IMG/VR virus record: IMGVR_UViG_3300015360_000235
Coordinates: 1 to 20,558 of that record
Strand: one strand, 5' to 3'
DNA: 20,558 nucleotides
Origin: a virus
The stretch's first letter is position 1. The number at the start of each line of letters is the position of its first letter. The notes beneath the pieces are model-generated. The model saw only the letters and a list, made by a program, of their open reading frames with translations. It did not search any database and was not told the DNA's origin. The position numbers and the translations under genes were made by a program. Below, piece by piece: positions 8,937 through 20,558 of this stretch.

Positions 8937-9824
8937 TCAGGTCGCCATGACCACGGCGGATGCCGACCCGTTGGCGTTCACGAGCATGTGCTTCTTGCTG
9001 CCCGAGATGCCGAGAGCTGCGCCGTAGAGGATGTCGGCCGAGATCACGAAACCGAACTTCTTCTGCGAGTGCAGGTCGGACACCTTGAACCGAACCGACT
9101 TCTGCATCACGAGATGCAGGAAGTCCGGGTGGAAGACCACGGCCTGGTCAGTCGCCAGCGAGTTGTCTTCCAGGATGTTGAAGCCGAAACGCTTGTTTGC
9201 GATCTGGCCGCCGATGACCGGGGATTCGTCGCCCACGTAGTCCTTGGAGGTCAGGGTCGTGGCGGCGAGATTGTCGCCGTAGTACACGGGGTCGGCAAGC
9301 ACCCACCAACCCTTGGACTTCTCCCACTTGGCCTGAGCGGCCAGGATGCGGAGCGCCTGGAGCTGGGAGGCGTCGAAGTTGGTCACCGAGTTGATCAGGT
9401 GATCGGGGGCAGAGGTCGACGGTGCGACCTTTGAGTAGAGATGCGTGTTCATCTGCTGCTCGACGGCGTACATGAGCGCCTTGCGGATATCGCTGTCCTT
9501 GCTCCCAAGCTGAGACTGGAGCATGGCCAGGTCGTCGAACTCGTATGCGGCCACGGCGCGCTTGTCGGCGGCCACCGCGATGCGGCTCATGGAGAGCTGG
9601 TCCGTTTCGAACGCGTCGGCGTCGGTGCCAACGGTGCGGTTCTCGCCGGTCGGAGCGTTGATCTGGGAGACGTACACGGTGTCGCCACCCTGCTTGATCT
9701 CGCCCTGATACTCCTTGTTGACGATGCCGGCGAGCATTGCCGACTTGCGAAGTTCGTCCATGAACAGGGGGGGCCAGAATTTCTGAACCTGGTCGGTGAC
9801 GGCTGCTAAAGTGGTCTGAGACAT
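8937..9824 (-). CDS. Major capsid protein (HK97-fold)
   Basis: This encodes 295 residues from an ATG with a near-perfect CCGGAGG ribosome site, the best in the operon, as expected for the most abundant virion protein. The N-terminus (QKFWPPLFMDELRKSAMLAG followed by EYQGEIKQGGDTVYVSQIN) is typical of coat proteins of the P22 gp5-like branch of the HK97 fold. Later parts hold KGWWVLADPVYYGDNL and an IADILYG-like end with a GISGSKKHMLVNA tail. There is no obvious N-terminal delta domain, in keeping with a separate scaffold gene just upstream. It builds the icosahedral shell. Confidence 0.93.
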   Translation of the reverse strand: MSQTTLAAVTDQVQKFWPPLFMDELRKSAMLAGIVNKEYQGEIKQGGDTVYVSQINAPTGENRTVGTDADAFETDQLSMSRIAVAADKRAVAAYEFDDLAMLQSQLGSKDSDIRKALMYAVEQQMNTHLYSKVAPSTSAPDHLINSVTNFDASQLQALRILAAQAKWEKSKGWWVLADPVYYGDNLAATTLTSKDYVGDESPVIGGQIANKRFGFNILEDNSLATDQAVVFHPDFLHLVMQKSVRFKVSDLHSQKKFGFVISADILYGAALGISGSKKHMLVNANGSASAVVMAT

Positions 9825-13325: not shown

Positions 13326-14738
13326 TTACCTCGAGGAAGATGAGGACTTCTGTCCCCGTTTCAGTGCTTCAAAACAAACTGCGTAGCCGGCCGCGGTGCC
13401 CACGTGCTGATAGGCGGGCTGGTCGTCTTCGATGTACTGGCCGCCGTTCTTTAGCTTCGTGAGCCGCATGGCCTCGTCGAGAGTCGGCGCCTTGCGGTAA
13501 ACAAAGAAGCGGTGCTCCTTTAGCGTGTTACGCATGTAGCCGTTCATCAGGTTGTGGCGCGTGCGAACGGGCGGGTTTGCCGCCGTGATCTCGATCTCAA
13601 ACTCCAGGCGCGACCCGTCCGTGCGGCGGTAGTCGGCGAGAAACTTCTGAATGATCTGGTAGTCGGTCCGCTTTGAGCGCGTGTCGCGGTTCTTCCCCGC
13701 GGCGTCCCCGCGAACGAGGAACTTCGAGCGCCGCTCAAACAGCTCGCGGCCGGCGATCTCTTCCATGATCTGCTCGGTGTCGGCGCCGTCCACGACAAAG
13801 TCTTCGGCCCAGTGCCACTCGTCCGTGGCCTGGTCGTACTGGCCCGCGCAAGCCGACATGGGCTTTCCAACGCCGATGTTGAAGTCATGCGAGACGACGA
13901 TCGGGAGCTTTTCGCTCCACTCGTAGTCGCGGTCGCGGAAGTTCGCGGCCTTGTCATACGCGTGGTAGACGACTTCCTGGCTGATCTCGATCCACTGGCC
14001 TTCAAGCATCCGAAGCGCCATTTTGGGGTCAAGATCCCGCTTCAGCTGCGCCACGTACTCAGGCGGGAGGAACGGGTTATCGGTCGTCACCGAGTAGTAG
14101 ACATGGCGGGTCGGGGACTTCGAGGTGATCCAGTGCTTATGCGCCCAGTGAGCGGGCGAGTCTGGGTTCGTGGCAACGCCGATCCAGCTCTCCGGGACGT
14201 GCGGGAGGCGGCCGACTCGCATGCGGAGCTCAGGATAGAACGCCTTGTAGGAGTCGTCGTTCTCGGTCAGTTCCTCGACGATGGCAGCTGAGAGCGCGAC
14301 CGAGCGGAACTTCTTGAACTTCTTATCCGCCCACGAGCGCGAGATGATCTCTGAGCCATTCGAGAAGCGCACCGAGCCCTTCTGCTTATTGTGCGTGTAG
14401 TCCTTGCCCTCGACCAGGTCGCCTTCCATGTGCTCGAGCACCGTGGCGAGGATCGTCTCTTTCAGGTCGGGCATGGCCTTGCGGCAAAGGGCGAGCTTTG
14501 CGCCTGAGTACATCAGGCAATGCGTGACGCCCAGGTGCGCGAGCAGGATCGACTTCGCAGAGCCCACCGAACCAGAGAGTATGAACTCGTGGATGCGGCC
14601 CTTTCGTCCCTCGTCGTCCTTGTAGCTCCAGTTTTTCCGCACGTCCTGGATCACGCGGAACTGGTACGGGATCACGCGCGGGTCAAACCCAGAGAGGCTC
14701 GGGGTCGATGATGTGCGGAAGGCTTCGGCGGCGCTCAC
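13326..14738 (-). CDS. terL: Terminase large subunit
   Basis: This encodes 470 residues from a GTG at 14738 that overlaps the small terminase stop (GTGA), with GAGG 7 bases upstream; the longer frame to 14903 is a shadow. The ATPase half has Walker A GSVGSAKS (residues 56-63) and Walker B AAIVEEL (about 151-157) with the catalytic Glu. The nuclease half shows VVSHDFNIGVG (Asp about 285), LVRGDAAGKN (Asp about 345) and a late DDQPAYQHVGTAAGYAV segment. The position next to small terminase and portal is standard. It powers DNA packaging and cuts the concatemer. The packaging type cannot be read from this window. Confidence 0.95.
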   Translation of the reverse strand: MSAAEAFRTSSTPSLSGFDPRVIPYQFRVIQDVRKNWSYKDDEGRKGRIHEFILSGSVGSAKSILLAHLGVTHCLMYSGAKLALCRKAMPDLKETILATVLEHMEGDLVEGKDYTHNKQKGSVRFSNGSEIISRSWADKKFKKFRSVALSAAIVEELTENDDSYKAFYPELRMRVGRLPHVPESWIGVATNPDSPAHWAHKHWITSKSPTRHVYYSVTTDNPFLPPEYVAQLKRDLDPKMALRMLEGQWIEISQEVVYHAYDKAANFRDRDYEWSEKLPIVVSHDFNIGVGKPMSACAGQYDQATDEWHWAEDFVVDGADTEQIMEEIAGRELFERRSKFLVRGDAAGKNRDTRSKRTDYQIIQKFLADYRRTDGSRLEFEIEITAANPPVRTRHNLMNGYMRNTLKEHRFFVYRKAPTLDEAMRLTKLKNGGQYIEDDQPAYQHVGTAAGYAVCFEALKRGQKSSSSSR

Positions 14739-15127
14739 TTTCTGCCCTCGTCCTCGAGCCGGTAAGCCAGGCGAAGGGCCGAGCGTGCCTCGTCCTCGAT
14801 CTCTTCGGGCTGCTTGTCTCGCCACTTGAAGCGGTTCTTCATGTTGAACGTCCAGACGGGAGAGTTCAGGCAAGTCGAGCCGACACGGTCCGACACGGTC
14901 CAAAGTCCCTTAATCCCCTGGCGCTCCCAGAACAGGAGGCACGCATCGAAGGCGCGCGCCTTGGCGTTACGCCATTCCTCGTGATCCTTTTCCCAGTTGT
15001 AGAGCGTGGTACGCGCAACGCCGGTTAACCCGGCGAAAGCCTCGTAAGAGAGCCCCGCGGACATGTGCGCGATGAGCTCGGCGCAGTACTTCGGGTCGTA
15101 ATCTGTCGGGCGACCGGCCGTACTCAG
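14735..15127 (-). CDS. terS: Terminase small subunit, apparently started at CTG
   Basis: The reading frame is open from a TAG at 15139-15137 to the TGA at 14735. The first ATG (15064) would cut off a GRPTDYDPKYCAELIAHM segment that is characteristic of small terminase N-termini. No ATG, GTG or TTG precedes that segment; only CTG at 15127 does, with AGAGG placed 6 bases upstream and a CTGA overlap with an upstream 26-codon frame, mirroring the other overlaps here. The 130-residue product has a helix-turn-helix (SYEAFAGLTGVARTTLYNWE) and a VWTFNMKNRFKWRDK motif. It recognises the packaging site and regulates the large subunit. ATG 15064 remains possible with 109 residues. Confidence 0.85.
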   Translation of the reverse strand: MSTAGRPTDYDPKYCAELIAHMSAGLSYEAFAGLTGVARTTLYNWEKDHEEWRNAKARAFDACLLFWERQGIKGLWTVSDRVGSTCLNSPVWTFNMKNRFKWRDKQPEEIEDEARSALRLAYRLEDEGRK

Positions 15128-15335: not shown

Positions 15336-15524
15336 ATGGGAATGAAGAAAGAGATGCCGAAGCCAGCCTTCGGGAAGCTGAACCTGGTCGTCGGGGTCGC
15401 GGTCGATGACGACCTCAAGGCGCGCGTGGACCGCCTGAAAGCGAAGCGAGCGCCGTTCAATGAGCGAGCGCGGGCCCTGCTGTACTCGCTCGCGCAGGAC
15501 ATGGAGGACGAGGAAAAGGGCTAA
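15336..15524 (+). CDS. Ribbon-helix-helix-like small DNA-binding protein
   Basis: This is the only convincing plus-strand gene, 62 residues. TGGAGGGAG lies just upstream; ATG 15336 has tight spacing, while ATG 15342 (two codons later) has about 7 bases and may be the true start. The protein has a basic tail (MKKEMPKPAFGKL), a short strand (NLVVGVAV), helix DDDLKARVDRLKAKR, then FNERARALLYSLAQDMEDEE. Strand-helix-helix with this spacing resembles Arc/MetJ-type regulators. Such proteins bind palindromes as dimers, and a perfect one lies 64 bases upstream, so autoregulation and control of the divergent late operon are likely but inferred. Confidence 0.75.
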   Translation: MGMKKEMPKPAFGKLNLVVGVAVDDDLKARVDRLKAKRAPFNERARALLYSLAQDMEDEEKG

Positions 15525-15697
15525 CCCTTCGGGAGCTTCCGCTTCGGCGCTGGCTTCGGCTTCACGCGCGCGGGCAGCGGGTTGAACGAGAGCGTGAACT
15601 CGACATTGGATGTGGGGTAGTCGGCGTCGGTGCGCGGGTCCATTGCTGGGCCGTTCACGGGAATGTCGGGTAGCTTGCGCTTCGGCTTCTTCGGCAT
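15521..15697 (-). CDS. Small Lys/Pro-rich hypothetical protein
   Basis: This 58-residue frame starts at ATG 15697 and ends with TAG overlapping the stop of the plus-strand regulator, so the two genes converge end to end. Both ends are basic and Pro-rich (MPKKPKRKLPDIP at the start, KPKPAPKRKLPKG at the end), and the middle has a TSNVEFTLSFNPLPARV strand. The ribosome site is weak. The repeated KRKLP element at both ends could bind nucleic acid. I do not recognise a family. Confidence 0.5.
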   Translation of the reverse strand: MPKKPKRKLPDIPVNGPAMDPRTDADYPTSNVEFTLSFNPLPARVKPKPAPKRKLPKG

Positions 15698-15730
15698 GAG
15701 GCGCCGTCTTAGCTGGCGTTACGCCGCGTG

Positions 15731-15850
15731 TCAAGCTGGGCTGGAGGCCCTGACGTCGATCACCCCGTGGTAGTGGTCGCCGCCAGCCTTACCTCCGAGA
15801 GAGTAGAGTGCGTCCTTGGAGTTGCCGCGATAAGTGAAAATTTTCGCCAT
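15731..15850 (-). CDS. Possible 39-residue small protein
   Basis: A short frame reads MAKIFTYRGNSKDALYSLGG and continues with KAGGDHYHGVIDVRASSPA. The composition is protein-like, but the bases before the ATG (CACCTCCT) are the reverse of a ribosome site. Together with the two candidates around it, this fills an otherwise empty 250-base stretch. Low confidence; chance is a fair alternative. Confidence 0.3.
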   Translation of the reverse strand: MAKIFTYRGNSKDALYSLGGKAGGDHYHGVIDVRASSPA

Positions 15851-15914: not shown

Positions 15915-15949
15915 AAAAGCCATCACCCCGTCCACACTCAGGCACCTAC

Positions 15950-16643: not shown

Positions 16644-17017
16644 CACTCAGTCCTCGCTGGGGTTGGGGGTTCGTCGTGGTACACGGGTTCCGCAGAGGTG
16701 CGTGGACGGAGGAGTAAACCACCTCGCGCGACGTGCGCGGCTTCGCCAGCACTTAGCCCTTTTAGATCGATCGGCTTGTACCATTCGTGCGTCGGCGCTG
16801 GTATGTACGCCGGTCTCGGCGCCTTCGGGTAGAAAGTGCTCCGTGCCGTGCCGTTGCACACGCCGTCGGCGCCTAAAAACTTATTGTCAATAGGTCTTGC
16901 CATCGTAGGCTTGCGGACACACGCCATCATAAACGGCGTCACGCCCACGTCCACGTCAACCGTGACGTTAATGCAGTTGTGCGCGCAGATATAGACGTTT
17001 TCTCTTGGTAGTTTCAC
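16643..17017 (-). CDS. Hypothetical Cys-containing phage protein with PPTPARTE tail
   Basis: This encodes 124 residues from a GTG at 17017 with GAGG 5 bases upstream. It begins with a Cys pair (YICAHNCINVTVDVDVGVTP), has a middle region ARPIDNKFLGADGVCNGTAR, then YPKAPRPAYIPAPTHEWYKP, and a Gly/Leu/Arg-rich segment. PTHEWYKP-type strings occur in small uncharacterised phage proteins I remember, but I cannot name the family. The four Cys could bind zinc. The last nine residues, EPPTPARTE, are encoded by a 23-base sequence that also ends an unrelated gene at 17497. Confidence 0.68.
   Translation of the reverse strand: MKLPRENVYICAHNCINVTVDVDVGVTPFMMACVRKPTMARPIDNKFLGADGVCNGTARSTFYPKAPRPAYIPAPTHEWYKPIDLKGLSAGEAAHVARGGLLLRPRTSAEPVYHDEPPTPARTE
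16650..16672 (-). repeat. Gene-end boundary repeat, PPTPART type (copy 1)
   Basis: A 23-base sequence encodes the PPTPART tail and part of the following ribosome site. It is repeated exactly at 17504-17526, where it ends a different gene. The proteins before the tail are unrelated. Confidence 0.85.
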
Positions 17018-17064: not shown

Positions 17065-17286
17065 TTACGCCGGTTCGTAGGACTTCTCGAAAATATCGGG
17101 CTTACACGGGTAATATTCCCCGCGCAGACCCTCGATGATGTAGTCGCCGATATTCGCAGTCATCACACCCTCAAGCGTTGGAATTGTCCACTGCGACGCC
17201 ACTGGCCCGATCGCGCGCTTTACCGTGATCTTGCTCTTGAAGTTTTTTGGGCTGTATTTCTCGAAAGACTGCTTCATAGTTTCCAT
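17065..17286 (-). CDS. Conserved phage hypothetical protein (PCKPDIFEKSYE family)
   Basis: This encodes 73 residues from an ATG with GAGG about 10 bases upstream; ATG 17277 is an alternative. The C-terminal GDYIIEGLRGEYYPCKPDIF followed by EKSYE matches a short protein seen in many tailed phages, with GDWI/GDYI, a basic Gly turn and PCKPDIF as its core. Function is unknown in the examples I recall. A CCCC-GAGA-GGGG hairpin (17307-17318) lies just before its ribosome site, and it is preceded by the structured element at 17326-17418. Confidence 0.75.
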   Translation of the reverse strand: METMKQSFEKYSPKNFKSKITVKRAIGPVASQWTIPTLEGVMTANIGDYIIEGLRGEYYPCKPDIFEKSYEPA

Positions 17287-17325
17287 TGTTTCTCGTCCTC
17301 ATTTCTCCCCTCTCGGGGCGTTGTT

Positions 17326-17418
17326 AAAAAGCGGCGGGCCGGTGGGTCGTCGTTATAAGCCGGAGTCGCCACCCCGAAACCCCACCGTGCGAGGGCTAGC
17401 GTTTCCCACCCGCCGCTT
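17326..17418 (-). ncRNA. Candidate structured RNA: three-way junction with terminal U-run
   Basis: A 10-bp closing stem pairs AAGCGGCGGG (complement of 17409-17418) with CCCGCCGCTT (17329-17338), extended by TGGG/CCCA. Inside are two hairpins that abut: one with AAAC/GTTT and CCC/GGG pairs (17377-17404), and one with CGGGGT and ACTCCG closing a 4-base loop (17361-17376). On the minus strand it is followed by TTTTTAA (17330-17324), so it could be a terminator, a small RNA or a leader element. No convincing gene crosses it. Confidence 0.5.
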
Positions 17419-17496
17419 CATTGCCCAGGAACCGCGAGCCCGGCTTGCGCCGCTCCCTCGCGCCAGTGCTGAAACACCGCCTGGCAATTCCATTGT
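17419..17496 (-). pseudogene. Possible gene remnant before the structured element
   Basis: In one minus frame this stretch reads WNCQAVFQHWREGAAQAGLA and then VPGQ before a TGA at 17420-17418, which looks like the end of a real protein. There is no start codon for it: upstream the frame runs back through the 17497-17745 gene out of phase. It may be the 3' end of a gene whose front was replaced by recombination at the shared boundary sequence. A 46-codon frame from an ATG at about 17490 runs through the structured element and is less protein-like. Confidence 0.3.
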
Positions 17497-17745
17497 TCAC
17501 TTCGTCCTCGCTGGGGTTGGGGGTTCATTCCATCCGCCGCGCCCGTTACAGGTTTGGCATCGCATATTCTCGTCAGGGTGAAGACATGCACATACGTCCT
17601 CGCCGCAGTCGTGGCCGGACACGAACTCCCCGGAGCACTCATGGCAGACTACCCATGCATAATCCGGCGTGTTGTCCTCAGCCTCGTGCTGCGCATTCAG
17701 CGCATCGTCAGCCTCTTGTCCGCATAGCGGATCGACGTAGCCCAT
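17497..17745 (-). CDS. Cys-rich putative zinc-binding protein
   Basis: This encodes 82 residues from ATG 17745, which overlaps the previous stop (TGATG); an earlier start would lie inside that gene. It has CHEC (after VV), a GHDCGEDVCACLHP segment, and CQTCNGRGGW near the end, giving two or three C-x2-C type knuckles; the last resembles the DnaJ-type CxxCxGxG unit. It probably binds one or two zinc ions. It ends NEPPTPARTK, the tail shared with the gene ending at 16643. Function unknown. Confidence 0.7.
   Translation of the reverse strand: MGYVDPLCGQEADDALNAQHEAEDNTPDYAWVVCHECSGEFVSGHDCGEDVCACLHPDENMRCQTCNGRGGWNEPPTPARTK
17504..17526 (-). repeat. Gene-end boundary repeat, PPTPART type (copy 2)
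   Basis: Exact second copy of the 23-base boundary sequence at 16650-16672. It includes the GCGAGGAC ribosome-site core that follows the stop region. Confidence 0.85.
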
Positions 17746-17764
17746 CACTTCCCCACCTTCTTCG
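17743..17764 (-). repeat. Gene-end boundary repeat, KKVGK type (copy 1)
   Basis: A 22-base sequence encodes the KKVGK tail, the stop and the overlapping next start codon (TGATG). It is repeated exactly at 17934-17955. Confidence 0.85.
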
Positions 17765-17936
17765 CTGGGCGCGTGGGTTTTACACCCATCTCGCAGGGGT
17801 AGAACCAGCAGTTGCAGTCTGCGCATATGCCCGGCTTCATACCGGCTTTTTCCAGCGCTTCTGCCCACAACATAAACTGAATGAAGCCTAGCTGTACGGG
17901 TTTATGCCAGGCGCACTGGCGCCAGTGATCTCTCAT
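17745..17936 (-). CDS. Small Cys/Trp-rich hypothetical protein with KKVGK tail
   Basis: This encodes 63 residues from ATG 17936 (GTG at 17939 is directly before it). It has MRDHWRQCAWHKPVQLGFIQ, an amphipathic FMLWAEALEKAGMKPG helix, and CADCNCWFYPC, a Cys cluster that may hold zinc. It ends RPAKKVGK, nearly the same as the upstream gene's RPKPKKVGK; the DNA coding this end and the next start is repeated exactly over 22 bases. Start and stop overlap neighbours as TGATG. No family recognised. Confidence 0.65.
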   Translation of the reverse strand: MRDHWRQCAWHKPVQLGFIQFMLWAEALEKAGMKPGICADCNCWFYPCEMGVKPTRPAKKVGK

Positions 17937-17955: not shown

Positions 17956-18220
17956 GCTTCGGCCGTTTCATCGGCATATCAACCCCCTCGCGCCGTGGCT
18001 CGTCGAGTTCTGCTGAGTCGTAAATCGCGCAGCCAGCGTGCGCTATTCCGGGCAGTCCCGCTAGGACGCCCTTAACCAGTGCGGTGTTCTCGCCGGCTTG
18101 AAGGGCGATTCCGCAAAGCGCGCATGTGGTCGGGAGCCACGCGGACTCTCGGGAGTCTTTGCACTTCTCGCACTGGCAGATGGTGTGATGGGCGGTGGGC
18201 TTGGGCTTGGGTTTACTCAT
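17936..18220 (-). CDS. Putative zinc-binding phage protein with KKVGK tail
   Basis: This encodes 94 residues from ATG 18220, overlapping the Lar-like gene's stop (ATGA). It has a basic KPKPKPTAHH start, then CQCEKC, a CALCGIAL knuckle, and a later AGCAIYDSAE. The C-x2-C pairs suggest a zinc ribbon. The last residues, RPKPKKVGK, match the tail of the next gene. It belongs to the tightly packed accessory run; its function is unknown. Confidence 0.68.
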   Translation of the reverse strand: MSKPKPKPTAHHTICQCEKCKDSRESAWLPTTCALCGIALQAGENTALVKGVLAGLPGIAHAGCAIYDSAELDEPRREGVDMPMKRPKPKKVGK

Positions 18221-18906
18221 GGGGTGGGCTTCTTTGTGTACAGGGCTCCCGTCGCAAGTGCGCACATGGCCAGCATTCGCTCGTGCACGTTTGCGTCTAC
18301 GCCCGAGGGCACGCCTCCGCCTCTGATCTTCTCAAGTGCTTCTCGCAGTACTTTCACTTCAGCCAGTGCGGCTTCGTGTGCGGGCTCCACTATGCGCGCA
18401 TCGCTGATCGTTTCCTCATTTCCACACTGCTGGCAAACAACACCAAGAATGCGCATCCCGTCCTTCATGTATGCGCGTGTTGGTGGCGGCTCCTTTGGAG
18501 TGATGGCTTCGCTCAGGTCTGAGCACTTGCCGGTCAGGTAGGAGCTGTCGGCACTCAGGTCGGGGTTGTATCGCCGGATCACGGTATTTGCGGAGCCGTA
18601 CTTTCGCCCGTGGGTATGCTCCACAAGGAAGCGCCCACAGTTAGAATAGTGCATGCCCGCGCTACCACAGTGGGCGCAGGCTTGTGTGGGCTCCTGTACG
18701 GGCAGCACGCTAACCCAGCGCCGGGATCCTGCGGCGTCAGCCTCCGCCACGCGGCGATTCCACGCGGCGATGGTCGATAACATGTCTAGGCCATCCTTGC
18801 CGGAGGGTCCGACCGCGTCGCACTCGTTACACTCAACGCCTAGTGCGCCAATCTCCAGCTCCCTGCCTCCGCAGAATGGGCACGGCTTTAGTTCTTCGGT
18901 GGTCAT
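18217..18906 (-). CDS. Lar-like restriction alleviation protein with extended C-terminus
   Basis: This encodes 229 residues from ATG 18906, which has AAGGAGA upstream and overlaps the previous stop (ATGA). Residues 1-52 are the Lar module: LKPCPFCGG, VECNECDAVGPSG and AAWNRRV. Lar proteins blunt host type I restriction, though many such modules in phages are uncharacterised. The remaining 175 residues add CAHCGSAGMHYSNCGRF, a CQQCGNEETISD knuckle and a helical EAALAEVKVLREALEKIRGG end. The full length is far beyond the usual 60-90 residues, so this looks like a fusion of Lar with other zinc-ribbon and helical modules. Its first seven residues, MTTEELK, recur at the starts of two neighbouring genes. 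Confidence 0.78.
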   Translation of the reverse strand: MTTEELKPCPFCGGRELEIGALGVECNECDAVGPSGKDGLDMLSTIAAWNRRVAEADAAGSRRWVSVLPVQEPTQACAHCGSAGMHYSNCGRFLVEHTHGRKYGSANTVIRRYNPDLSADSSYLTGKCSDLSEAITPKEPPPTRAYMKDGMRILGVVCQQCGNEETISDARIVEPAHEAALAEVKVLREALEKIRGGGVPSGVDANVHERMLAMCALATGALYTKKPTP

Positions 18907-19232
18907 TTCGTCTCCTTGAGGGCGAGGGCTTTGCGCACTTTTTCCATGGACCAATTTGTAAAGAAATACTGACCGGAGGAGTCGGGGCATTCGATCGAGT
19001 CAATAAAGACGGCCTGGAGCGCCGCGCGTAGTTTTGCGTTCTCCGCCAGTGCGGCGTCGCGCTGCTCACGAATATCGGACACGTTGCGCTCACTCGCCTC
19101 GAAGAAATCGTCAGCTTGTGCCTTCTCGGCGTCCATGTGGTCTAGCAGCGCGATGACTTCGGCGGGGCCTACCGAATAGCGGAACCGTGATGTAACGCAA
19201 CCACGCAGCCGCTTCAGTTCTTCGGTTGTCAT
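18903..19232 (-). CDS. Ea22-like mosaic protein
   Basis: This encodes 109 residues from ATG 19232, overlapping the previous stop (ATGA). It starts MTTEELKRLRGCVTSRFRYS, then has GPAEVIALLDHMDAEKAQAD, a coiled-coil part (RNVSDIREQRDAALAENAKL), and ends KVRKALALKETK. The 'xxVIALLDxxDAE' unit and the 'ALAENAKLRxAL' helix are hallmarks of lambda Ea22-type early proteins, whose role is not settled. Start and end are each shared with other genes in this cluster, so it looks assembled from exchangeable parts. Confidence 0.72.
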   Translation of the reverse strand: MTTEELKRLRGCVTSRFRYSVGPAEVIALLDHMDAEKAQADDFFEASERNVSDIREQRDAALAENAKLRAALQAVFIDSIECPDSSGQYFFTNWSMEKVRKALALKETK

Positions 19233-19364
19233 TTCGTCACCTTTGGTTCGAGCGCATCCCGCGCCCTCGCACCGTAGTCCACCATGATGAGCACCGTCTG
19301 TTCAACCGCGTGAACGGCCTGATAGTGGTGATCGTCGGCGTACCAGGACAGTGCCGCGCGCAGC
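19197..19364 (-). repeat. Direct repeat, copy A
   Basis: This 168-base segment recurs at 19807-19974 at an offset of 610 bases. The first 68 bases (19197-19264) are identical and the rest differs at scattered positions. It spans the end of one gene (ALEPKVTK tail), the overlapping start and the first codons of the next (MTTEELKRLRGC), so the junction itself is the repeated unit. Confidence 0.93.
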
Positions 19365-19639
19365 TGCCCTATTTCCATTTCCATTTGTAATCTTGGCCTG
19401 ATGTCGGCCAAGGGGTCAGCAAGCACAGCATTCAGCTGACACCGCGTCTCCTGCAGTTTTCCCTCTGCCTCATCCGCCCGCGCGCGCTCGGCGTTGATGC
19501 GGGAGAGTAGGGCGACAATAGCTTCAGAGTCCTTGCGCTGCCCAGGGGAGACGACCCCAGGGTCCGCAGCGTCGCGGTCGAGAAAGCCCTGATGCTGGGC
19601 GCGTAGTTCATCATCCGTCGCGGGGTTTGGGGTTCTCAT
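19229..19639 (-). CDS. Ea22-like mosaic protein with WYADDHHYQAVHA module
   Basis: This encodes 136 residues from ATG 19639, overlapping the previous stop (ATGA); a longer frame to 19726 is not used. It opens MRTPNPATDDELRAQHQGFL, then has EAIVALLSRINAERARADEA (the Ea22-type unit), a short coiled coil, and a C-terminal module LRAALSWYADDHHYQAVHAV followed by DALEPKVTK. The same C-terminal module ends the gene at 19839. The ADDHHYQ motif is rich in His and acidic residues and could bind metal, but no enzyme family is recognised. Confidence 0.72.
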   Translation of the reverse strand: MRTPNPATDDELRAQHQGFLDRDAADPGVVSPGQRKDSEAIVALLSRINAERARADEAEGKLQETRCQLNAVLADPLADIRPRLQMEMEIGQLRAALSWYADDHHYQAVHAVEQTVLIMVDYGARARDALEPKVTK

Positions 19640-19842
19640 GGGGAATCCGTGGGTGGGTTGTATACGCCGGACTTTCGGTAGCAGGCCCAGGCCGCGCGAG
19701 AGAAACCGCTCGCGAGCCAGTTCCAAAAGTCATTTTTACGACGTCTGTGTGCTCTCATCATTTCTCTCCCCTTGCTCGCGAGCATCGCGCGGATCACTGA
19801 TGCGATGCAACCACGCAGCCGCTTCAGTTCTTCGGTTGTCAT
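19636..19842 (-). CDS. Short mosaic protein, possibly a truncated copy
   Basis: This encodes 68 residues from ATG 19842, overlapping the previous stop (ATGA). The first 12 residues, MTTEELKRLRGC, are the same as those of the gene at 18903, then the sequence turns to IASVIRAMLASKGREMMRAH and a basic, aromatic end (NDFWNWLASGFSRAAWACYR). None of the Ea22 coiled-coil follows. It seems to be a common front end joined to a different short back end, either a working small protein or a deletion derivative. Confidence 0.6.
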   Translation of the reverse strand: MTTEELKRLRGCIASVIRAMLASKGREMMRAHRRRKNDFWNWLASGFSRAAWACYRKSGVYNPPTDSP

Positions 19843-19974
19843 TTCGTCACCTTTGGTTCGAGCGCATCCCGCGCACGCTCGCCGTAGTCCGACATGATGA
19901 GCACCGTCTGATCTATCGCGTGGACGGCCTGATAGTGGTGATCGTCGGCGTACCAGGACAGCGCGTCTCGCAGC
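19807..19974 (-). repeat. Direct repeat, copy B
   Basis: This is the second copy of the 168-base junction repeat at 19197-19364. It covers the front of the 68-residue gene and the C-terminal module of the gene at 19839. The exact block is 19807-19874; beyond it the copies differ mainly at isolated positions, consistent with an older duplication followed by recent exchange at the junction. Confidence 0.93.
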
Positions 19975-20144
19975 TTTGCGTTCTCAGCCAGTTCAGCGTC
20001 GATACGGGCAATCAGACGCGCAAGGCCACGACGCGTTATGTAGGCGTTGGAATTATCGTTAGATGAGGTCATGTACCGCCAGTTCTGAACGAACTCAGCG
20101 TCTGCGGGTACTACGGCATCCGTCGCGGGGTTCGGGGTGGTCAT
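19839..20144 (-). CDS. Mosaic protein with PNPATD start and WYADDHHYQAVHA module
   Basis: This encodes 101 residues from ATG 20144 with AAGGAGA upstream and an ATGA overlap; a frame reaching 20246 is rejected. It begins MTTPNPATDAVVPADAEFVQ, has NAYITRRGLARLIARIDAEL, then AENAKLRDALSWYADDHHYQ and ends DALEPKVTK. The last 45 residues are nearly the same as those of the gene at 19229, while the middle is unrelated. The PNPATD start is also shared with that gene. No known function. Confidence 0.72.
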   Translation of the reverse strand: MTTPNPATDAVVPADAEFVQNWRYMTSSNDNSNAYITRRGLARLIARIDAELAENAKLRDALSWYADDHHYQAVHAIDQTVLIMSDYGERARDALEPKVTK

Positions 20145-20558
20145 GGAGTCTCCTTGTGGGCGAGGGTTTTGTCTATGTCCGCAACACAGGACCGCGCTAC
20201 GTGCCCCGCCGAGCCTTCGCAATATCTTGAGTTTTCGCCAAGCCACAGCAGGCGTTGTCGCAATGTTTTTAGCGTGTTTCGCAGTCTCACAATATCAGCC
20301 AGTGAAGCATCGCGCTCGTCGCGAAGCTCATCCCTCTCGTTCGCGAGGCTATTAATCCCGTCAATAACTCCTTCAAGGACATGATGCCCAGTCTCGCCGA
20401 GGAGGGCGTTGCATTCATGCAGGTACTCGTCGTTTTCGCGTGCATCAAGTTCAGCTTCATCCGCCCGCGCGCGCTCAGCGTCCAGACGATCTAGCAGCGC
20501 AAGCACCGTAGCGGGGTTCGCGGCGGCAATGTACCGATAGTTCGCCTCATCGCAGCTC
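20141..20558 (-). CDS. Ea22-like protein (5' end beyond window)
   Basis: The frame is open to the right edge of the window, so the true start lies outside. The visible 138 residues begin SCDEANYRYIAAANPATVLA and continue LLDRLDAERARADEAE, the classic Ea22-type signature (YIAAANPATVLALLD), then a coiled coil with repeated Glu/Asp/Arg (ANERDELRDERDASLADIVR) and an ENSRYCEGSAGHVARSCVAD segment, ending KTLAHKETP. The last residues resemble the end of the gene at 18903. The role of this family is unclear. Confidence 0.78.
   Translation of the reverse strand, partial: SCDEANYRYIAAANPATVLALLDRLDAERARADEAELDARENDEYLHECNALLGETGHHVLEGVIDGINSLANERDELRDERDASLADIVRLRNTLKTLRQRLLWLGENSRYCEGSAGHVARSCVADIDKTLAHKETP

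Follow-up and report, generated by a model that had tools for sequence, protein, structure and literature searches.

Does the 210-nt gap between two co-directional genes of this virus encode a functional RNA element and, if so, of what kind? The virus record is linear, and the window analysed here is the whole of it, 20,558 bases, with nearly every gene on the minus strand. The gap, at 17287–17496, is as long as an earlier note on this DNA had claimed; that note suggested a terminator, a small RNA or a cis-regulator. We estimate a probability of about 0.5 that the gap contains a terminator-like element or attenuator, acting on the minus strand between two co-directional groups of accessory genes. 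The best-supported candidate, judged from sequence features, is an intrinsic-terminator-like or attenuator element whose loop is branched and uncommonly long, inside a co-directional operon.

The higher coordinates of the record hold a series of short accessory genes, beyond the large terminase (13326–14903) and a small-subunit-like terminase protein (14735–15064). The nearest relatives in viral collections are metagenome contigs, with terminase identities of about 45–54% and an identity of up to 65% for the protein at 8937–9824, which by its position we take to be the major capsid protein. Downstream of the gap is a gene for a 73-aa protein (17065–17286, minus strand) with a phrog_419-type C-terminal domain of unknown function. 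Upstream is an ORF with CxxC motifs (17497–17868, minus strand), which matched nothing in a family search and is likely to have an internal start near 17744. A search for tRNA and tmRNA genes found none.

The minus strand of the gap is predicted to form a branched stem-loop at 17329–17418, with a minimum free energy of −45 kcal/mol. Its closing stem is the 10-bp stem described in the earlier note: a perfect inverted repeat whose 5ʹ arm, AAGCGGCGGG (17409–17418), and 3ʹ arm, CCCGCCGCTT (17329–17338), are separated by 70 nt. Eight of the ten pairs are G-C, and pairs 3–9 have a probability of 1.0 in the ensemble, making the closing stem near certain. The stem runs directly into TTTTTAAC. The TTTTT claimed to follow it is indeed there, at 17330–17326 on the minus strand, immediately 3ʹ of CCCGCCGC; its first two T are also the last two bases of the 3ʹ arm and are paired in the stem. 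This is one of only six runs of five or more T on the minus strand, and its U-tract score of 3.69 is reached at 9 of about 20,500 minus-strand positions.

Between the arms, the minimum-energy fold has two branches. One is a GGG/CCC hairpin of 3 bp; the other, a long CGGTGGG..CCCACCG arm, has a probability of 0.8–0.9 and contains an inner hairpin, CGGGGU/ACUCCG, with a probability of 0.6. The three-way junction proposed from the sequence is therefore present in the model fold, but it is lopsided, with one branch of only 3 bp. The proposed extension of the closing stem to “10 plus 4” pairs fared less well: a fold with that extension retains the closing stem but is 5 kcal/mol weaker than the minimum-energy fold (−40 versus −45 kcal/mol). 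The complementary strand has no U-run and folds less stably than the minus strand (−37.1 versus −45 kcal/mol; z −0.7 to −1.1 versus about −2.2). The GC-rich stem with its U-run is on the strand that is transcribed, and the complement folds more poorly; among the three functions originally listed, these features favour the terminator-like one.

How closely does the element resemble a known terminator? Like intrinsic (Rho-independent) terminators, it has a GC-rich stem leading straight into five U, it is intergenic, and it is on the same strand as the genes. Unlike them, it has a branched loop of 70 nt, sits inside a co-directional operon, and is known from sequence alone. The median loop of terminators mapped by Term-seq is 4 nt (PMC12207403), and canonical criteria specify a loop of 3–13 nt and a stem-loop of no more than 59 nt; the pipeline used in that study would have been unable to report longer loops (PMC12207403). 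The gap element has the GC-rich stem and the directly adjoining U-tract, and the 70 nt between its arms, although partly folded, exceed the canonical loop length; hence, it would act as an intrinsic terminator on paper but is not classed as a canonical member. Perhaps it is no more than a slightly modified ordinary terminator. In layout it is a familiar signal with a long loop, not a demonstrated new class of RNA, and a literature search on branched and long-loop terminators found no close precedent among the papers covered.

We propose that RNA polymerase on its way out of the gap would produce the GC-rich 3ʹ arm CCCGCCGC, which would pair with the 5ʹ arm transcribed about 70 nt earlier. The RNA between the arms would already be folded, keeping the effective loop short, and the closed stem adjoining five U would cause some or all polymerases to terminate. 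Those that read through would continue into the 73-aa gene, for which a separate ribosome site is present. Since the genes on both sides have the same direction, a strong terminator would require a downstream promoter or antitermination; a consensus scan for sigma-70 promoters found none in the gap. Termination itself and its efficiency are inferred here, as is any setting of downstream expression by partial termination or antitermination.

Could the fold have arisen by chance? The gap might be a GC-rich spacer, non-coding or decayed, that remained after two copies of a translation initiation module recombined, with a 10-bp repeat that happens to lie beside a T5 run. We consider this possible but rather doubtful. 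The suggestion that the minus strand of 17300–17425 would fold better than shuffled sequence was borne out only moderately (z −2.07, with 6 of 200 shuffles equally good); the corresponding z values are −3.0 for 17320–17421 and −2.0 to −2.2 for the 90-nt core. Among the genome's own 126-nt windows on both strands, the element ranks 78th of 2726, with a z of −1.76 after regression on GC content. In a GC-rich genome, this rank makes the stability by itself unremarkable, and it is consistent with a chance fold, as is the presence in the window of three further perfect stems of at least 10 bp with spacers of up to 100 nt. The combination of stem and U-run argues in the other direction. A GC stem of at least 8 bp adjoining T5 occurs at this single site in the 20.6-kb window, as compared to 0.08 per shuffled genome, and a stem of at least 10 bp adjoining T5 occurs in 3 of 200 shuffled whole genomes, although this test was picked after the site had been seen and its figure overstates the significance. 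A chance origin is also disfavoured by the location of the site, which occupies one of a small number of gaps and is on the strand that is transcribed. A T6 run near 15918 was considered as a second terminator and rejected, the fold there not being unusually stable (z +0.9).

The edges of the gap may point to some form of recombination. The gap is flanked by two copies of one module comprising a ribosome site and a start, visible as the direct repeat GAGGACGA..AACAATGGAA, and this repeat is a point in favour of a chance fold. The first copy, GAGGACGAAGTGAACAATGGAA (17488–17509, minus strand), overlaps the upstream gene's stop codon and provides the starts of two short ORFs of 34 and 46 aa; the second, GAGGACGAGAAACAATGGAA (17281–17300, minus strand), is the start of the 73-aa gene. 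The form GAGGACGAAGTGAA recurs, unchanged, where the gene at 17017 starts. Gene starts in this region have a common module, and the gap resembles a segment inserted between two copies; the repeat at both edges suggests module shuffling, as far as this can be read from the sequence. We rejected the gap as a degenerate remnant of the 73-aa gene: past the shared module, the two align no better than shuffled sequence. As a separate observation, two otherwise unlike genes share the terminal peptide PPTPART(E/K) (16646–16662 and 17500–17516) because both finish in CCCCAGCGAGGAC, which also serves as the ribosome site for the following ORF.

A further point consistent with a chance fold is that the element was found in no relative. 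BLAST of the gap against phages and plasmids gave no homologue, and neither did a 19-base exact pattern searched in viral contigs or word-7 blastn in 165 loci, 84 of them chosen by terminase or capsid protein; some of the 165 loci end too soon upstream of the terminase to cover the corresponding position. The element is known only from this single virus record, which leaves no relatives in which compensatory changes in the stem could show. We also rejected a role for the RNA as an invariable leader of phrog_419-type genes: 81 other loci carrying the domain have no comparable upstream stem and U-run, with one locus among them (L008) having a 7-bp stem and T6. Consistent with the earlier statement that no known family has this layout, the window had no match among 4227 Rfam families at the gathering threshold, a relaxed Rfam search of 17200–17600 gave no match up to E = 5, and Rfam searches of the comparison loci returned nothing relevant. 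The element resembles many structured cis-regulators in Rfam in being branched, closed and near a gene start, and differs from them in matching no family.

Do other viruses have elements of this kind? A search for the exact closing arms, with 50–80 nt between them and TTTT following, matched 13 viral contigs, of which about 10 are distinct; at six distinct sites the T run is five or more. By inspection, four of these sites with T5 or more are wholly or almost wholly intergenic (L169, L171/L175, L172/L173/L179 and L176), and three of the four immediately precede a ribosome site. When the 3ʹ arm was scrambled as a control, 6 contigs matched, 3 of them distinct, and one control site has a shifted 12-bp stem ahead of a ribosome site. 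These numbers are small. We do not claim the 13 matches as one family, since their arms are fixed by the query, their interiors differ, and several fall within coding sequence. Over other viral loci totalling 1.77 Mb, stems that adjoin T4 and have a 41–100-nt loop are near the chance level (5 versus 2.6 expected), whereas short-loop stems adjoining T4 are strongly enriched (18 versus 0.2 expected). Long-loop elements like the stem in the gap seem to exist but are rare.

Two of these sets of loci deserve separate mention. The sites L172:50–128, L173:3801–3881 and L179:2725–2805 are a terminator-like compound hairpin beside convergent genes; as judged by eye, the inner helix is kept between L172 and L173 by paired differences (GAGGACTGC/GCAGTCCTC versus GAGGATGGC/GCCATCCTC), which are apparent compensatory changes. 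A scrambled-control site, L180:2806–2881 (also L181 and L183), has a branched GC stem and TTTT, followed by a ribosome site and ATG.

Terminator finders limit the loop to about 13–20 nt, and arms lying 50–80 nt apart around a folded domain escape such searches. If the element in the gap terminates transcription, operon maps of GC-rich phage genomes would overlook stops inside operons. Otherwise, the lesson is that an attractive stem with a U-run can arise by chance at 60% GC.

An alternative to simple termination is that termination is linked to translation. Ribosomes translating a leader ORF, starting from GTG at 17500 or ATG at 17493, would cover the 5ʹ arm and block the stem, such that the 73-aa gene is expressed only during leader translation. 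The 34-codon ORF (17396–17500, minus strand) starts with the GTG, which overlaps the upstream gene's stop codon (GTGA), and has its own stop inside the RNA fold; the 46-codon ORF (17353–17493, minus strand), in another frame, passes through the 5ʹ arm. Both reach into that arm, and the gene at 17017 has an identical ribosome site. Because a short, coupled ORF runs into the stem, translation-linked attenuation may be possible on sequence grounds. The arrangement is like that of leader-peptide attenuators, in which a short ORF coupled to a ribosome site enters a terminator-like stem before a gene. It is unlike them in that the ORF in the gap is only putative, as any regulatory codons or alternative antiterminator fold would be; the alternative “10 plus 4” fold keeps the closing stem intact. 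The codon signals of the two ORFs, −0.02 and −0.23 per codon, are indecisive, falling between the in-frame mean of 0.40 and the wrong-frame mean of −0.41; the signal of some accessory genes is no better. The 34-codon ORF is thus a candidate coding sequence of uncertain status, and we regard attenuation by leader translation as unlikely.

Might the RNA instead act on its own? Small RNAs usually finish in a closed fold with a 3ʹ U-run. The compact, closed fold and 3ʹ U-run of the gap element would suit a stand-alone phage small RNA of about 90–130 nt whose 3ʹ end is the terminator stem. We consider this distinctly unlikely: a consensus scan of the minus strand found no sigma-70-like promoter upstream, Rfam gave no match, and conservation was not seen. 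Least probable of all is that this phage RNA acts in cis through the branched domain in its terminator loop, with binding of a ligand, protein or ribosome to that domain deciding whether the stem closes on the U-run, and that the whole moves as a module between copies of the shared ribosome site.

The terminator-like reading of the gap owes nothing to the second hairpin noted in it. This CCCC-GAGA-GGGG hairpin, CCCCGAGAGGGG, with a GNRA loop, is present at 17318–17307 on the minus strand, and the region previously given for it began 3 bases off, at 17304. It ends short of the ribosome site, and 3ʹ of it lies GAGGACGAGAAACAATG, where the 73-aa gene starts. The minus strand has 23 all-GC 4-bp tetraloop hairpins, four of them, including this one, with GNRA loops. 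The GAGA hairpin is of ordinary frequency and contributes nothing measurable.

Elsewhere in the window, small minus-strand ORFs (MAKIFTYRGNSKDALYSLGGKAGGDHYHGVIDVRASSPA and MPKKPKRKLPDIP...) lie at 15516–15850, between the terminase and the accessory genes, and a plausible plus-strand ORF lies near them, at 15336–15524. The protein encoded at 18217–18990 has a restriction alleviation domain of Lar type (Pfam PF14354, E = 3e-7). The region 18885–20312 is an array of short related genes with common starts (MTTEELK...) and common ends (...ALEPKVTK), and includes a 187-nt repeat of 89% identity (19179–19365 and 19789–19975). From their sequences, these genes seem to be cassettes that duplicate and recombine at their ends.
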